Numbered from the stretch's first letter, positions 29,261-38,394 are shown. The stretch is DNA of 38,394 nt from a candidate division WOR-1 bacterium RIFOXYB2_FULL_36_35 (GCA_001771505.1 MEUA01000057.1:1-38394); one strand, 5' to 3'. The notes: generated by a model not told the origin, from the sequence alone. A program made the numbers and translations.

Positions 29261-29608
29261 ATGCAATCATTCTTTCGTGTTTTTGAAGGGATAACAACAA
29301 GGAGCGACAGATGGCTGGGGATAGACATCAACAACAGGAGGATATCTTTTTATTTAAACGGCTCAACAGTTAGGATAAACTCTATATTTCGAAATTGCAG
29401 AGTAGATAGAATAATAAACGATACGGCCTATATCCCGCTTGTAAGGATGTGGGGAGGAAAATACTTTGAGGGAAGAATAAACGGGGATGAAGTAAAAAGC
29501 TTGAAAACAGGACAATACGTAGATGTGCAGGTTGCGGAACTAAAGACAGAAAGAGGCTTTTTAAAAAATAAGCCTTTGGTCCTTTTAAAAGTGTTGAACC
29601 CCGATTAG
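29261..29608 (+). CDS. Unknown protein, 115 residues
   Basis: A small, probably beta-rich soluble protein with many alternating hydrophobic and charged residues (RISFYLNGSTVRINSI, YFEGRINGDEVKSL, GQYVDVQVAEL). The N-terminal FRVFEGITTRSDRWLGIDI resembles nothing I recognise. GGGAGGG precedes ATG 29261. The stop codon TAG and the last residues (NPD) lie inside a palindromic repeat. It stands alone, divergent from mfd. Confidence 0.6.
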   Translation: MQSFFRVFEGITTRSDRWLGIDINNRRISFYLNGSTVRINSIFRNCRVDRIINDTAYIPLVRMWGGKYFEGRINGDEVKSLKTGQYVDVQVAELKTERGFLKNKPLVLLKVLNPD

Positions 29609-29626: not shown

Positions 29627-30691
29627 TTATTTCTTGGCGTTTACAGCTTCAATCCTGTGAAAGCAATTCAAGTTATTATAAGGGGATCCGGAACTGTTAA
29701 AAGCCATGTCTTTGCAGCCGGCCTGGCAAATCTCTCCAAAATTACATTTTTTGCAGTAGCCTTTTAAATCCTCTTTTTTAAAATATCTGTTAATTTTAAA
29801 TTTCTTAGGATCGTTCCATAACACCGATAATGGCGTTTCAAGAACATTCCCTTCCTTAAATTTATCATCATAAAGAGAGAGGCACCCTCGCACATCTCCA
29901 TCACTTTGAATCCCCAACGCCGTCATGCCTGACGGACATCCATTCCAAGGTTTCTTTGCTCTTTGCAGAAGAGGGATACGACAAGAATAATAACCCATGT
30001 CATGAGCCCCAACTATAAGAAACTCTTTTGAAGCATATCGTTTTTGAATTTCAGCCAAACAGAGCCCGGCAAAATAAAACTCTAAAGGAGTCAACAAATC
30101 TTTTCTGGTCATTCTTGTCCCATGACAACTGGCAACCTGTATTTGCCAATTTGCTTTTTTCGCAACAACTATTTCAGCAATATTAAACAGATCATAAATG
30201 TTGTAACGAGTAAGCGTTGTAATGAAAGAAGCCGAAATCCCTTCTTTCGACAACTTATCTGTCAATTCCATTAACTGATTAAAAGATCCTTTTGTCCCTC
30301 TTATATAATCATGAGTTTCAGAGGCGCTTCCATCAAGGCTAACCCCCAAACGCCTCAATTTTAATTCTTTGAGTTGTTTTATAACGTTATCATCAACCAG
30401 CAATCCATTAGTAATAATAACTAACCTCATCCCCAAAGAACGTATTTTTTTGGCAATCTGAAACCAATCCCTTCTTACAAAAACCTCCCCTCCAATCAAA
30501 GAGACCTCTTTTGTCCCAATATCATTTAAATCTTCACACACCTTCAAAGCTTCTTCTGTTGTCAATTCTTTTGAACGTTTTGGGCCGGCGGAGGCTCCGC
30601 AATGGATACAGCGCATATTGCACCCTCGTGTTATCTCCCAAACACAACAATCAGGAACATACATTTGATCCCTAAATTTTGGATTCGTCAT
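29627..30691 (-). CDS. Radical SAM/SPASM enzyme, candidate peptide-modifying enzyme
   Basis: A 354-residue radical SAM protein. The cluster-binding CxxxCxxC is at C24, C28, C31 (ITRGCNMRCIHC), and the SAM-contacting GGE lies near residue 67 (SLIGGEVF). The C-terminal 90 residues form a SPASM domain with several cysteines (CPSG, GCLSL, CKKCNFGEICQAGC, NCFHR), which should hold auxiliary iron-sulfur clusters. The closest known kinds are PqqE-, MftC- and sactipeptide-type enzymes that modify ribosomal peptides, and some heme-related or sulfatase-maturing enzymes. It overlaps the methyltransferase gene by 20 bases and is the last gene of a five-gene co-directional group with two small paralogous proteins, which favours a peptide substrate. 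Confidence 0.9.
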   Translation of the reverse strand: MTNPKFRDQMYVPDCCVWEITRGCNMRCIHCGASAGPKRSKELTTEEALKVCEDLNDIGTKEVSLIGGEVFVRRDWFQIAKKIRSLGMRLVIITNGLLVDDNVIKQLKELKLRRLGVSLDGSASETHDYIRGTKGSFNQLMELTDKLSKEGISASFITTLTRYNIYDLFNIAEIVVAKKANWQIQVASCHGTRMTRKDLLTPLEFYFAGLCLAEIQKRYASKEFLIVGAHDMGYYSCRIPLLQRAKKPWNGCPSGMTALGIQSDGDVRGCLSLYDDKFKEGNVLETPLSVLWNDPKKFKINRYFKKEDLKGYCKKCNFGEICQAGCKDMAFNSSGSPYNNLNCFHRIEAVNAKK

Positions 30692-31970
30692 AAATAACCG
30701 GCTTATTATAGCCCCTCCATCTATTTTTTCGCAGCACAGCGTTTAATTCTTTTAATAAATCTTCTTTTAGATAAGGGGAACAACCCATTAAAGATTTAGA
30801 ATAAAAATCTATAGCTCCCAACAAATTTCCATTTAATATACAAAGTCTTGCCATATTCCAGCAGGCAAAAATATTTTTAGGATTAAACTTTAAAGCTTCA
30901 TCAAATAAATTCTTCGCCTCTTTATTCTTTTTTTGTATAAAAGCTTTTGCCCCTTGCGCAGAGAGGCTGGCAGCTATATAAAAAATATGGCTCAAATCAA
31001 ACATAGATATAACCTTTAAGTAAGGGAGCTTATTTACACTACGAAAACAAAAAATCCCTTTTGACAGTTTATTTAAAGGGATTTTTTGCAAACTCTTTAA
31101 GTAAGACTTCGCGGATTCACAAGCATATAAATAATTTTCAACATTATCACTTATATAATTAGAAGAACCTACAAAAAAGCTATAAAGCTGAAGGATAAAA
31201 TTATTCTTTATCAGATAAGGGATAACTATTTTAAGTTTTTTGACCGAATCTGTTGGAAACAATTTAAAAGAATTAAAAACATCAAAAACAATTCTTCCAA
31301 TATGCGGGCTTAAAATAATAGAATCATATAAAAGCTCAAAAACAGATTCTTTGGAATAAACATCGATTTGAAGAATTTTATCGATTAAATTTTCTAATTC
31401 TATTTTAACCGGATGAACATTTTGAGGGTCGATAATCTTCCCCGCAACAAAAGTTCTTCTTAACGCTGATACAACAGAATATTTTTGATCATATTTTTCA
31501 GGCTTTTTACATTCCACCCTAAAAGAAACTCGATCTTTGCCACATTCAAACTGACTGATTTTTATATCTGCAAATCCTGCTTTTGCAAGTTCCTTGCGTA
31601 ATATCTCTTTTGAAAAACAGAATTTATGCTGATATCCTTCATATTCCATCCCGAATATCCAGTTTAACAAGGCTGCTTTTTTACCAGAAGAAGCTTCTGA
31701 ATAGGCCTTAATATTATCATCAAAAGAAGGGGTTGTAAGAGACAAATGACCATTGGGAGTAAGAACTCTAAACCATTCACTTAATGCGAATTTAGCTCCG
31801 ACATAACCAATATGTTCCAAAAGCTGTTCCGCAATAATTGAATCCACAGAATCTTCTTTATAAGGCAACTCCCAGCATTTTAAATTTTTATCTGCAATTG
31901 TCTTATCAAAAAAATCTATGTTAACATAATCCGGCAGATATTTTTTGCCGCAACCGATATTTAATTTCAT
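30672..31970 (-). CDS. SAM-dependent methyltransferase with C-terminal TPR
   Basis: A 432-residue two-part protein. Residues 1-160 are a class I methyltransferase: LNIGCGKKYLPDYVNIDF (SAM binding), a WELPYKEDSVDSIIAEQLLEH acidic/post-I region with LEH, and a GHLSLTTP strand. The middle 160 residues look helical and unknown. The end (about 325-410) has TPR-like repeats (AKNLFDEALKFNPKNIFACW, GAIDFYSKSL), suited to protein binding. Its stop overlaps the radical SAM gene, so the two are probably made together. A TAGAAT lies 18 bases before ATG 31970, and a hairpin separates it from the upstream small-protein genes, so it may have its own promoter. Target unknown. Confidence 0.85.
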   Translation of the reverse strand: MKLNIGCGKKYLPDYVNIDFFDKTIADKNLKCWELPYKEDSVDSIIAEQLLEHIGYVGAKFALSEWFRVLTPNGHLSLTTPSFDDNIKAYSEASSGKKAALLNWIFGMEYEGYQHKFCFSKEILRKELAKAGFADIKISQFECGKDRVSFRVECKKPEKYDQKYSVVSALRRTFVAGKIIDPQNVHPVKIELENLIDKILQIDVYSKESVFELLYDSIILSPHIGRIVFDVFNSFKLFPTDSVKKLKIVIPYLIKNNFILQLYSFFVGSSNYISDNVENYLYACESAKSYLKSLQKIPLNKLSKGIFCFRSVNKLPYLKVISMFDLSHIFYIAASLSAQGAKAFIQKKNKEAKNLFDEALKFNPKNIFACWNMARLCILNGNLLGAIDFYSKSLMGCSPYLKEDLLKELNAVLRKNRWRGYNKPVIYDESKI

Positions 31971-31997
31971 TTAATTTATCCAAAAAATTCTATCATC

Positions 31998-32055
31998 AAC
32001 AAAACAAAAACACCAGCCTTTCTCCAAACAAGACTCGGCCGGTGTTTTGTTTGTT
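31998..32055 (-). terminator. Hairpin terminator or attenuator after the small-protein genes
   Basis: Read on the minus strand, an A-rich arm ending CACCGGCC pairs with GGCTGGTG followed by T-rich sequence (TTTTTGTTTTGTT). This has the form of a rho-independent terminator and could also work in reverse. It would let the small proteins be made in excess over the enzymes downstream. Confidence 0.7.
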
Positions 32056-32063
32056 ATATTTAT

Positions 32064-32654
32064 TTAGATAACAGCATATCGCATCCCTTCACTACCATAG
32101 AAATCCCCTTGATACCAAGCCCCTGCCGGCTTATTAGAACTGATCACGTCAGGTTGCGATGCCACATCATTCACCGAAGATAAAAGCATAAACACATTGC
32201 TCTTCATCGTAAATTTAGCAGTAACCCCCTGGTTTAACATTATGCTCGCTATTGTGCCAAAGTCATATTTCCCTTTTTTTTGGACTTCTTCAACAGCTTT
32301 CAAAACTTCTCCAGAGGTAAATTTTTGCTGAAGCGCGCTATCCGAAATCAAAGCTTTTAAAAAGTCTTCTGTAAACTCCACGTTGTTATTCAAAGAGATA
32401 TCCGCAATTGAGCCTGCAAGTGGATATGAAAATTTATATTCAGATTGCAAAGACTGAATTACAAACGCATGCATCTCAGCTTCAGCCCCACCTCTAAAAG
32501 ATTTAGGAATACCAAAAAATTTGCCAATGCGGCTGGTTTCACCACGGGAAAAACCTCTTACATTAACATCCTCCTTCCCACCTCGAAATGTTTCCTTCTG
32601 TACCGGCACTTGTGTATTAAATTTTTCAACAAGTCCTCTCATCAAAAATCCCAT
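32064..32654 (-). CDS. Small protein with Nif11-like segment, candidate modified-peptide precursor
   Basis: A 196-residue protein with a perfect AGGAGGTGA site before ATG 32654. The first 60 residues are polar and Gly/Arg-rich. A central part (about 65-155) is shared with the neighbouring 140-residue protein, including FTEDFLKALISDSALQQKF, SGEVLKAVEE and KFTMKSNVFMLL. The FLKALISDSALQQKF...AVEE...KGKYDF pattern resembles the Nif11 leader-peptide family. After it comes a unique tail of about 37 residues rich in Gly, Ser, Tyr and Asp (ending GDFYGSEGMRYAVI) in the place of a core peptide. No GG cleavage site is obvious. A hairpin follows the gene. It may instead be an uncharacterised duplicated family. 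Confidence 0.6.
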   Translation of the reverse strand: MGFLMRGLVEKFNTQVPVQKETFRGGKEDVNVRGFSRGETSRIGKFFGIPKSFRGGAEAEMHAFVIQSLQSEYKFSYPLAGSIADISLNNNVEFTEDFLKALISDSALQQKFTSGEVLKAVEEVQKKGKYDFGTIASIMLNQGVTAKFTMKSNVFMLLSSVNDVASQPDVISSNKPAGAWYQGDFYGSEGMRYAVI

Positions 32655-32728
32655 TCAAATCACCTCCTTGTTTGTTTATTTATTCGCCTTTCAACCCTCT
32701 TATCTATCGTTCACCCATAGCTTAAATT

Positions 32729-33151
32729 TCATTCTTCTGTCAGAACAAAAACATTATCTTTCATGGTAAACTTTTGATATAAGTCTTTGTTCTTTTCTAT
32801 TTTTGTAATCGCCAAAAATTCGTAAAATTTCTTCTTATGCGTATCTTCCACGGCAGCCTTGACCTCTCCTGACAAAAACCTCTCTTGAAGTTTGGATTCC
32901 TCTGCCAGATATTTTAAAAACCCTTCTGTAAAATCGACATTTAGCATTGCAACTTCGGCCACTTTCATAGCCAAATCAGAATTAAACCCATAGCCCTTCC
33001 TCAAATCCGCAACAATAAACTCTTTCATTATAATCTGAGGGTCACGAAGCACTCTTAAATGCTTAGCTGATTTCCCTTTTAAAGGGACAGATATATCTTC
33101 AGGCCAGTTTTTTTTCGCGAACTCAAGTATCCGTTTCATTACAAGCTTCAT
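32729..33151 (-). CDS. Small protein, paralogue of the 196-residue neighbour
   Basis: A 140-residue protein sharing with its neighbour the sequence plan FIVADLRKGYGF, VDFTEGFLKYLAEESKLQERF, SGEVKAAVED and KFTMKDNVFVL. It ends two residues after the shared NVF-L motif, so it has no extra tail. Its N-terminus (KRILEFAKKNWPEDI) differs from that of the neighbour. It could be a precursor without core, a decoy or chaperone-like leader protein, or an unrelated duplicated gene. It lies between the FGE-like gene and the longer paralogue. The start could be ATG 33151 or the ATG four codons later. Confidence 0.65.
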   Translation of the reverse strand: MKLVMKRILEFAKKNWPEDISVPLKGKSAKHLRVLRDPQIIMKEFIVADLRKGYGFNSDLAMKVAEVAMLNVDFTEGFLKYLAEESKLQERFLSGEVKAAVEDTHKKKFYEFLAITKIEKNKDLYQKFTMKDNVFVLTEE

Positions 33152-33167
33152 ATATTAATAACCTATT

Positions 33168-33191
33168 TACCCCGATTATCATCATCGGGTT
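33168..33191. repeat. Palindromic repeat between FGE-like and small-protein genes
   Basis: ACCCCGATTATCATCATCGG copy between two co-directional genes. Here, unlike most copies, it sits inside a possible operon and could reduce read-through. Confidence 0.7.
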
Positions 33192-34091
33192 TTATAAATC
33201 ATCGCCAACTCGAAATCCAGTAGAATTGTCTCGAATATTTTTCGATATACCGTGCCGATGACTGCATTTGAAATAATCCAAGTTATGAATCCAGTATGCG
33301 CCGCCGCGACAGGAAATAGACTCTCCTTCTGTGGCAAATATCGGATCACGAGGCATTGAAAAGTCAATTCTTTCATAAAATGAACGCGTCCATTCCCACA
33401 CGTTTCCCGCCAAATCCCTCACCCCTTCCACACTCTTCCCCATCTCTACACCATTTCTATTAATAGGCCTCGTGTGAGAATCTTTAAACACAATCCAATC
33501 ATCTACAAACAAAGTTCCCCAAGGGAAGAAACTTCCCATAGGGCCGGCGGCAGCCCGCTCCCATTCAAGCTCCGTTAAAAGACGCTTCCCAGTCCATTTG
33601 GCAAATTCCTGCGCATCATAAAAAGAGACCCCTACAACGGGTAAATAATGACCAACAACTCTTCTCGTCTCATCTTCAGCTTCAAAACCAAAGAGTCTAT
33701 CATCCCAAAATGCAGGCAGCTGATATCCGGTACTATCACAAAACACCTTATATTGAGCATTTGTAATTAGATCCCTGCTAACTCTAAAACCGTTCACCCT
33801 TACTCCTTCTACATTCTGAAATATAAATTCTCCGCCTGGAATATTTATCATATTTAAATCTATTCTCGGCCTGCAGAATCTCAATAAAATAGAAGGTATC
33901 CCTCCACTTTGAATAGCCTGAGAAATACGGCTTTTCACCACTGGAAACCCAAATGACTTAAGGGCATCTACTAGCTCGTCAGTAAGTTCTCCTCCATTTT
34001 GAACAGAAACAACTTTATTATAGAGCTCGTCAACATCTCCCCTCTCAACAACAACACTCAAATTAAATGATATAATTTTTTTGCTGAACAT
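33192..34091 (-). CDS. Formylglycine-generating enzyme fold (SUMF1/EgtB) protein
   Basis: A 299-residue protein. The first 75 residues are unlike the rest and unknown. From MINIPGGEFIF onward it is a typical FGE-sulfatase domain: VSRDLITNAQYKVFCDSTGY, LPVVGVSFYDAQEFAKWTGKRL, LTELEWERAA, FPWG, VRDLAGNVWEWT, SCRGGAYWI and a final STGFRVGDDL. At the end, where copper-dependent FGEs carry a pair of cysteines, only one is seen (FKCSHRHG), so sulfatase formylglycine formation is doubtful. Some relatives, such as EgtB, act on small molecules. It starts the five-gene group with the small paralogous proteins and radical SAM enzyme and might bind or modify their products. Confidence 0.85.
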   Translation of the reverse strand: MFSKKIISFNLSVVVERGDVDELYNKVVSVQNGGELTDELVDALKSFGFPVVKSRISQAIQSGGIPSILLRFCRPRIDLNMINIPGGEFIFQNVEGVRVNGFRVSRDLITNAQYKVFCDSTGYQLPAFWDDRLFGFEAEDETRRVVGHYLPVVGVSFYDAQEFAKWTGKRLLTELEWERAAAGPMGSFFPWGTLFVDDWIVFKDSHTRPINRNGVEMGKSVEGVRDLAGNVWEWTRSFYERIDFSMPRDPIFATEGESISCRGGAYWIHNLDYFKCSHRHGISKNIRDNSTGFRVGDDL

Positions 34092-36125: not shown

Positions 36126-36188
36126 GAGATGGATCCCCGCTTTCGCGGGGATGACAAATTGCAAAGATTGCTATTATGCAACAAACCC
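36126..36188 (-). repeat. Dispersed repeat, half element, reverse orientation
   Basis: On the minus strand it starts GGGTTTGTTGCATAATAG and runs through GCAATTTGTCATCCCCGCG and AAAGCGGGGATCCAT, matching the element at 3544 and 12139. It lies in the 206-base gap upstream of the unknown plus-strand gene. Confidence 0.75.
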
Positions 36189-36205
36189 ATAGGAGGAAAA
36201 ACAAA

Positions 36206-37447
36206 ATGCAAAGAATATCTAGAGATTTAGGACGAACTGATGGAGGTCGTCTTGTTTCCCCTTTTGCACAATTCCACCCTCATACATCACAGGTATTAGA
36301 GGACTTAGCAAATCAGCCATGGATTAGAAACACTATCTCAAAACAAGATCTGGCTAAAATCGCAAACGGAGAAGGAGTGCCATCGGTTCATTTTAAAAAC
36401 ATAATATGTGAGCAGATGAATATACTTCCTATTACAAAAGCATTAGCACAAGAAATCGTGGCGTTAGTTGAACTGACAAATGTAGTACTTAATATAATAG
36501 AATACGCGGACTTTGAAAAAGCTTTTAATGTCAGAGATCCCTTCAATTTTGATTCAGAAGATTTAAGGGACTTCATATCAGCAATGGACGAATCTATTAG
36601 CAAAAATGTAAATGATCCTTTAAGGGTAAGGTTCGATTCATTTGTAGGGAAAATACATATAACATCTCTCAATGAAATATCGGCCGCCGTTCAGGTGGCA
36701 AGATTATTAAGTGATAATTTAGTAGGTGGAATACCTCATGAAGGAGCTACTTTAAATCTTTTAACAGATTTAAAGGCCATACTGACTTTGCCTGAAGCAA
36801 GTGGACTAAGAACTGCTCACGAAACACTAGATAAAAGTCAAATGGACCGTTTGCAAAAAGATTTAAAAGATATTTTAGAGTATTTATCTACTGCAAGCGC
36901 AATGAGCAACAAACAAATCGCAAGGGCTTTTTTAGAACTATTTTCTCTCGCAGGTAAAATACTAAAAGGGGAAAAAGGGGCAGAATATAGATCCCTTATG
37001 GGATACTATATAGGCTATATGGTTCAAAGAGCTCCGGTAAATGATCCTGAGTTTGCAATGGAATACTTGGCTGCTATCACTAAAATCTCTCGTGACCATC
37101 AATCCTCTATATTGCACGAAGGGAGACGAAGGTTTTGTTTAGAAGATAGAGAAGTCGCACACTATATCTTAACATTAATGAAACCAATGAAAGCACACCA
37201 TCCCGGAAGCCATCTAAGCCCAGCTGACCCTATAGTTGCTATTTTAGGCTCGAAAATTGATTTCACCGACAAAACCCTTAGGGAAGGTTTTTTAGCATAT
37301 ATTGAACCTTTAAATGAAGGGACAAGATTCAAGATATGGAGGAAAATGCTTGACAATGATAGTTTGCCAGAAGATTTAAAGGATCAAATCATAAGAGAAG
37401 TGAAAGCAACAGACGCTTACGCGGTTATAAAAAGGCTCGAAAGATAA
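36206..37447 (+). CDS. Unknown helical protein, first tandem copy
   Basis: A 413-residue soluble protein, mostly alpha-helical, with no membrane segment and no family I recognise. ATG 36206 has AGGAGG ten bases upstream; the frame upstream (from 36176) runs into repeat sequence and is not coding. Notable segments: SKQDLAKIANGEGVPSVHFK (could be a helix-turn-helix-like bundle, not certain), DESISKNVNDPLRVRFDSFV, and LSTASAMSNKQIARAFLELF. The following gene is a close paralogue with the same leader sequence, so the pair arose by tandem duplication. Codon use and base content look like the rest of the window. Confidence 0.75.
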   Translation: MQRISRDLGRTDGGRLVSPFAQFHPHTSQVLEDLANQPWIRNTISKQDLAKIANGEGVPSVHFKNIICEQMNILPITKALAQEIVALVELTNVVLNIIEYADFEKAFNVRDPFNFDSEDLRDFISAMDESISKNVNDPLRVRFDSFVGKIHITSLNEISAAVQVARLLSDNLVGGIPHEGATLNLLTDLKAILTLPEASGLRTAHETLDKSQMDRLQKDLKDILEYLSTASAMSNKQIARAFLELFSLAGKILKGEKGAEYRSLMGYYIGYMVQRAPVNDPEFAMEYLAAITKISRDHQSSILHEGRRRFCLEDREVAHYILTLMKPMKAHHPGSHLSPADPIVAILGSKIDFTDKTLREGFLAYIEPLNEGTRFKIWRKMLDNDSLPEDLKDQIIREVKATDAYAVIKRLER

Positions 37448-37505: not shown

Positions 37506-38394
37506 ATGCAAGTACTATCTAGGAAATTAAAACTAACTGATGGAGGTTACCCTTTTGCGCAATTCAACTCTTACACATCACAGGTATTAGATACCTTAGC
37601 GAGCCAGCCATGGTTTTTTGGTTATATCTCAAAACAAGATCTGGCCAGAATCGCAAACGGAGAAGGGGTCGCATCAGATAGGTTTAAAAGAATAATATGT
37701 GAGCATATGAATATATGGCCTATTACAGCAAAGTTAGTAGATATAAATAAAATTGATTCTGCTGAATACAAGAGAAAATCCTTAGTCGAATTGACAGGTG
37801 TAATGCTTAATATAATAGAATACGCTGACTTCGAAAAAACTTTTAATGCCGGAAACTACAGTTGCAATCATCTTGAATCTGTAAAAGACTTCATATCAGT
37901 AATGGACGAATCTATTAGCAAAAATGTAAATGATCCTTTAAGGGTAAGGTTCAATTCATTTGTAGGGAAAATACATCTAACATCTCTCAATGAAATATCG
38001 GCCGCCGTTCAGATAGCAAGGTTATTAAATGATACTTTAGTAGGTGGGATACCTCATGAAGGAGCTACTTTAAATCTTTTAACAGATTTAAGGGCCTTAC
38101 TGACTTCTTTTGAAGCAGGGGGACTAAGCGAAACATCAGAGAGAATGCAAAGGGACCAATTTCAAGAAGATTTAAAAAATATTTTAGGATATTTATCTAC
38201 TGCAAGCGCAATGAGCAACAAACAAATCGCAAGGGCTTTTTTAGAACTATTTTCTCTCGCAGGTAAAATACTAAAAGGGGCAGAACATAAGTCTCTTATT
38301 GAATACGACATAGCTTATCTGGTGGATAGAGCTCCAGTAAACGAGCCTGATTTTGCGATGGAATACTTGGCTGCCATTGAAAGAATCTCTCCTG
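37506..38394 (+). CDS. Unknown helical protein, second tandem copy, cut by window end
   Basis: The frame is open from ATG 37506 to the last base (296 codons) without a stop, so the gene continues outside. It has the same AGGAGGAAAAACAAAATGCA start context as the first copy. The product matches the first copy along its whole visible length. Changes include a shorter N-terminus, an insertion of about 11 residues near residue 83 (around VDINKIDSAEYKRKS) and a diverged segment around 120-130. Other blocks are identical, including 91 bases at 38190-38280. Function unknown. Confidence 0.75.
   Translation, partial: MQVLSRKLKLTDGGYPFAQFNSYTSQVLDTLASQPWFFGYISKQDLARIANGEGVASDRFKRIICEHMNIWPITAKLVDINKIDSAEYKRKSLVELTGVMLNIIEYADFEKTFNAGNYSCNHLESVKDFISVMDESISKNVNDPLRVRFNSFVGKIHLTSLNEISAAVQIARLLNDTLVGGIPHEGATLNLLTDLRALLTSFEAGGLSETSERMQRDQFQEDLKNILGYLSTASAMSNKQIARAFLELFSLAGKILKGAEHKSLIEYDIAYLVDRAPVNEPDFAMEYLAAIERISP

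Follow-up and report, generated by a model that had tools for sequence, protein, structure and literature searches.

Which of the genes lying in a row on the minus strand of a Margulisbacterial contig belong together, and on what does the radical SAM (rSAM)/SPASM enzyme encoded among them act? The locus lies in a 38,394 nt stretch of DNA (the window, meaning the whole stretch analysed) from a WOR-1/Margulisbacteria genome (G000). A reading made from the sequence alone, hereafter the sequence-only reading, had assigned five genes to a RiPP-like locus that included an FGE-fold protein and small proteins resembling the Nif11 leader family. The analysis reported here points to a splicease-like cassette comprising the genes at 29627-33151, which would modify the tail of a small protein, most likely by tyramine excision at Tyr186, and we give this reading a probability of about 0.5.

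The conserved four-gene unit and its surroundings

All five ORFs of the sequence-only reading were recovered exactly where it had placed them (Table 1), with intergenic gaps of 40, 74 and 93 nt and with the 3′-end of the methyltransferase gene overlapping the rSAM gene start by 20 nt. Its domain assignments agreed with Pfam, which recovered radical SAM plus SPASM, an FGE-sulfatase fold, a methyltransferase and a TPR (the last just below the curated cut-off). The two small proteins proved to be paralogues, as had been proposed, with 45% identity over residues 61–162 (E 8e-20, about 100 residues), and the extra tail noted on the longer one was confirmed as a C-terminal tail in the 196-aa protein only. 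A promoter scan of the locus gave no matches above chance level; terminator-like sites numbered 9 against a shuffled mean of 4.2, and none of them fell in the gap between the genes of the 196-aa protein and the methyltransferase. Elsewhere in the window, an isolated 115-aa gene between the Mfd and rSAM genes (29261-29608, +) had no Pfam match at E ≤ 1, and two tandem genes of unknown function (36176-37447 and 37506-38393, +) had similar N-termini (FAQF...SQVLxxLAxQPW...ISKQDLAxIANGEG) and no convincing Pfam match.

Table 1. Positions of the features discussed (window coordinates unless a locus handle is given)
Feature	Position	Strand	Basis
Radical SAM/SPASM enzyme, 354 aa	29627..30691	-	Pfam PF04055 1.3e-30, PF13186 4.5e-9
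Class I methyltransferase with C-terminal TPR-like stretch, 432 aa	30672..31970	-	Methyltransf_11 1.7e-5; TPR_2 7.6e-6 (just below cut-off)
196-aa protein, proposed rSAM substrate	32064..32654	-	61% identical G002 orthologue adjoins the same rSAM; dN/dS ~0.3
Residues 56-158 of the 196-aa protein, predicted to be folded and shared with the 140-aa paralogue	32181..32489	-	AlphaFold2, alignment
C-terminal tail (residues 174-196, NKPAGAWYQGDFYGSEGMRYAVI), conserved and predicted to be disordered; proposed region of modification	32067..32135	-	pLDDT, conserved in G002
Phe185-Tyr186-Gly187, candidate X-Tyr-Gly splice site	32094..32102	-	Sequence; XYG is the documented PlpXY site (PMC10533398)
Gly190-x-Arg-Tyr-Ala-Val, common to all four Margulisbacterial partner tails	32070..32087	-	Tail comparison
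140-aa paralogue of the putative substrate's folded region, without tail	32729..33151	-	Paralogy; 66% identical G002 orthologue, also ends before the tail
FGE-fold protein gene	33192-34091	-	40 nt upstream of the 140-aa paralogue gene, same strand
GDL-type loci in which DUF1843 paralogues were read	L048:4210-4923, L050:4040-4755, L099:549-1249, L100:796-1251		

The conserved unit is smaller than five genes and consists of the 140-aa paralogue, the 196-aa protein, the methyltransferase(-TPR) and the rSAM/SPASM enzyme. In the nearest locus-bearing relative, ‘candidate division WOR-1 bacterium RIFOXYB2_FULL_37_13’ of a sister genus (G002), a 146-aa paralogue, a 195-aa protein, a methyltransferase-TPR and the rSAM are encoded in identical order, with 66%, 61%, 74% and 86% identity to their window counterparts, respectively, and dN/dS values indicated purifying selection on the four genes, the synonymous distance of the paralogue being saturated. 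When the window ORFs were compared with the G002 region, only these four and one generic glycosyltransferase matched, so that the flanks of the two blocks are unrelated and the block has therefore stayed together in differing surroundings. A Mutator-family transposase fragment adjoins the rSAM gene in G002 (L013:6525-6869, -), suggesting past movement of the cassette or of the DNA around it.

The more distant genomes G038 and G031 carry a triplet of a ~200–240-aa protein, a shorter methyltransferase without TPR and an rSAM 40–41% identical to that of the window; a further upstream gene is possible there because both contigs end just upstream of the triplet. Across the 74 genomes of the phylum examined, a close rSAM was found in four, and the partner protein adjoined it in every one of them; only four such loci were found in Margulisbacteria, a small number that counts against the cassette reading. 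When either partner type served as query, the tailed protein was detected only beside an rSAM, leaving aside a weak and partial match within a 4033-aa frame of G022. A scan of genome contigs with the rSAM returned only G002 and a distant (28%) Thermoplasmatales enzyme, and no relatives were found in the viral contigs searched.

The radical SAM/SPASM enzyme and its relatives

The window rSAM carries CxxxCxxC at residues 24–31 and a seven-Cys SPASM domain (C252 to C343), which places it in the radical SAM/SPASM superfamily. Its best NCBIfam models were TIGR03913 (GDL maturases, 219 bits) and TIGR04103 (nif11_3, which we take to correspond to IPR026482; 214 bits), short of the curated cut-offs of 591.75 and 725 bits, respectively. 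The enzyme and its orthologues scored 200–235 bits against these cut-offs, two homologues giving 202 and 235 bits with TIGR03913, and models for heme and cofactor enzymes matched the window rSAM as well, more weakly. Plasmid relatives from Agathobacter, Aureibacter, Azospirillum, Tropicibacter and Nostoc formed a separate tier at 181–218 bits, the next among the matches listed scoring 113–128. Three further radical SAM genes stand in a row elsewhere in the genome (G000:C26:24222-29375).

A tree built from 28 rSAM/SPASM sequences placed the enzymes of the four Margulisbacterial loci in one clade (support 96/95) with Nostoc nif11_3, Azospirillum GDL, Aureibacter, Tropicibacter and Agathobacter; within this clade the four formed a subgroup with Agathobacter (96/91) and stood as sister to the TIGR04103 members, not nested inside them. 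The tree had been rebuilt without three long rows of a first version, in which the clade had support of 57/77, because these long outgroup branches blurred the clade. The residues G32, W76, Q183, Q185, G233, S272 and N340 did not vary within the clade and occurred in none of the 19 other SPASM enzymes, the clade-specific motifs being HCG, W76, WQxQ, GY, S272 and N340. The clade is one of peptide maturases that includes the splicease (PlpX-type) and GDL/DUF1843 types, with the window rSAM outside the curated families.

PlpX is the characterised splicease in IPR026482 and excises tyramine from Xaa-Tyr-Gly (PMC11002830, PMC10533398), XYG being the documented conversion site of PlpXY (PMC10533398). 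The window system resembles the PlpX-type spliceases (TIGR04103; PlpXY of Pleurocapsa) in rSAM/SPASM clade and diagnostic residues, and the Nostoc nif11_3 partner, with the C-terminus SIALYGLPPELF, carries its XYG site (SIALYG) in the C-terminal core, like the window tail. It differs from them in that its rSAM is ~34% identical to the Nostoc member and reaches 214 of 725 bits, in that Nif11 and NHLP leaders are missing, and in that the putative substrate is a ~200-aa protein with an adjoining methyltransferase gene. Inspection of the loci revealed no PlpY-like gene, a point against the splicease reading, and the 140-aa paralogue is related to the putative substrate.

The GDL maturases with DUF1843 partners (TIGR03913; Azospirillum, Aureibacter), which gave the window rSAM its best NCBIfam score, are alike in that small paralogous partners with an XY[GAM] site adjoin the rSAM, and in Aureibacter a methyltransferase, by inspection of a different type from that of the window, follows it. 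They are unlike the window system in carrying this site at the N-terminus of a 54–70-aa partner, and the window rSAM reaches 219 of the 592 bits. Every DUF1843 paralogue read beside a GDL-type maturase (Table 1) has, close to its N-terminus, a Tyr with Gly, Ala or Met as the next residue, which is consistent with these paralogues being splicease-type substrates.

The nearest relative found outside the phylum was an rSAM encoded on an Agathobacter rectalis plasmid (WP_015515522, 36% identical). Because membership of the plasmid tier predicted an XYG-bearing partner, the stretch upstream of its gene was examined, and an unannotated 35-codon ORF (NZ_CP143948.1, L047:4821-4928, +) was found, with a GGGAGG ribosome-binding site before the ATG and a hairpin with a T run downstream. 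The encoded 35-aa peptide has the C-terminus LFGPVMYGTGVRM (MYGTGVRM), which is like the window tail motif and provides a partly independent check on the XYG prediction. Unlike in the window, the partner is a short peptide and not a 200-aa protein, and an MFS transporter takes the place of the methyltransferase; the ORF likely encodes a RiPP-like precursor in a gut bacterium. A GDL-like radical SAM gene on a plasmid of Tropicibacter oceani has near it a gene (L051:1082-1663, +) for a 193-aa protein with the C-terminus GGDFGGGFRY, which recalls the Margulisbacterial tails but with Phe replacing Tyr.

The C-terminal tail and the competing readings

The AlphaFold2 model of the 196-aa protein, built from four sequences, had a mean pLDDT of 52. 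Within the folded block (residues 56–158) values reach 87, the helices at residues 56–130 being the better modelled part, and fall below 50 at residues 131–146; residues 159–196 also stay below 50. In a PDB fold search this low-confidence model gave no match at E ≤ 0.001. The C-terminus of the protein is a tail, KPAGAWYQGDFYGSEGMRYAVI, that is conserved and predicted to be disordered; in it the X-Tyr-Gly site lies inside the motif Y-[GAT]-x(1,2)-G-x-R, and a low-confidence tail (residues 208–238) is also predicted for the G031 partner. This motif was present in all four Margulisbacterial partners, whose tails read GAWYQGDFYGSEGMRYAVI (G000), GAWYNGNYYGDAGFRYAVV (G002), SSYTPGSRYAVVSKNEINYTLSA (G038) and SSYTPGTRYAVVSKNEINYTLSK (G031), and in the Agathobacter 35-aa peptide; within the last 40 residues it occurred in no other of the 281 ORFs in the loci examined, a count that is descriptive because the pattern was drawn from these same tails. 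Against the splicease-like reading, conservation of the tail between G000 and G002 does not exceed that of the folded region, the two being roughly equal, and the linker before the tail is somewhat more variable. Between G031 and G038 it is conserved far better than the variable stretch preceding it, and some of this conservation may be forced because the last tail residues overlap the methyltransferase gene start.

The core idea of the sequence-only reading, that the rSAM/SPASM enzyme modifies the neighbouring small protein, is supported by the strict co-occurrence in four genomes, the lost flanking synteny, the conserved predicted disordered tail and the peptide-maturase clade, and we consider it very probable that the rSAM and the 196-aa protein are an enzyme–substrate pair. 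Because the rSAM falls in a splicease-containing clade and the tail carries X-Tyr-Gly, tyramine excision would be the most likely reaction, an assignment that follows the relatives and is put forward tentatively.

The candidate site reads FYG in G000 and YYG in G002, with SYT at the corresponding place in G031 and G038, and, since the latter two carry SYT, XYG was abandoned as the sole reading of the four tails. The same tail might instead undergo other chemistry, such as cross-linking among Trp180, Tyr181 and Tyr186, epimerisation, or oxidation or decarboxylation at the end formed by G-x-R-Y-A-V, which is a possible but less probable outcome. The G-x-R-Y-A-V element is strictly common to the four tails, so Tyr193 or Arg192 could be the target; this shared motif end and the missing XYG in two genomes speak against a splicease, SPASM enzymes catalyse many reactions, and the window rSAM belongs to neither curated family. 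Against such chemistry, the tail Trp and first Tyr of G000 are absent from G031 and G038, and a Tyr-Gly or Tyr-Ala site is present in one or more partners of every readable clade relative except Tropicibacter.

Alternatively, the locus might serve a small-molecule or cofactor pathway in which the small proteins would be carrier or structural subunits and not substrates, as the locus without a transporter or protease gene and the weaker matches to heme and cofactor rSAM models might suggest. This is improbable, since the supported clade consists of peptide maturases, apart from the heme and cofactor enzymes in the tree, and the tail motif recurs in an unrelated peptide beside a related rSAM in Agathobacter. 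As for the exported peptide considered in the sequence-only reading, nothing suggests export, and the putative substrate looks like a ~200-aa protein.

The FGE-fold gene, formerly counted in the unit, is a neighbour and not a member of it, because homologues were absent from G002, G031 and G038 and about twenty full or partial matches, a genome-specific paralogue family, were found in G000. Many G000 proteins, some FGE-like and some with other C-terminal parts, begin with the ~70-residue N-terminal segment of the FGE-fold protein (M-x-x-K-x-[VI]-SF-x-L ... GFP); they are encoded on contigs C12, C14, C44, C19, C31, C17, C20 and others (L080-L089), and this segment was not found in six related genomes. 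The Nif11 resemblance of the small proteins did not hold up in Pfam, NCBIfam or profile–profile comparison: no match was obtained at E ≤ 10 with the window small proteins (Pfam, within search filters), the phylum-wide PF07862 search gave none in G000 or G002 at E ≤ 1, and the hhalign score of 14.7, with four sequences per side, was reached by 8 of 100 column shuffles. The NHLP model (TIGR03793), to which a match had also been considered, was absent from the NCBIfam matches of either small protein at E ≤ 1 in a search of the window proteins only. The sequence-only picture of a Nif11-type RiPP locus of five genes, FGE-fold gene included, has in its favour the position of that gene close upstream on the same strand, but it is largely refuted by the missing FGE homologues and Nif11 matches and is very improbable.

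Proposed mechanism and its meaning

In the splicease-like cassette, the rSAM/SPASM enzyme would recognise the 196-aa protein and act on its flexible C-terminal tail, where radical cleavage at Tyr186 would release a tyramine unit and the backbone would be rejoined, so that Phe185 (Tyr in G002, Ser in G031 and G038) would become an alpha-keto-beta-amino residue, a ketoamide. Speculatively, the tail-less 140-aa paralogue could be a partner or chaperone presenting the substrate, and the methyltransferase could modify the rSAM product. In its most specific form, the proposal would describe a Margulisbacterial relative of the spliceases: a backbone ketoamide would be introduced into the tail of a ~200-aa protein, not into a peptide natural product, the tail-less paralogue would take the place of PlpY, and a methyltransferase devoted to the system would act on the residue left by splicing. 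This full combination appears rather unlikely.

Spliceases alter the protein backbone itself and have already been applied in site-specific labelling (PMC10533398). The known scope of splicease chemistry would be extended by a subgroup that has another substrate scaffold and an attached methyltransferase and in which no PlpY-like gene was seen. If the cassette is splicease-like, this chemistry would reach an uncultured phylum, in a compact three- or four-gene system suited to co-expression tests.
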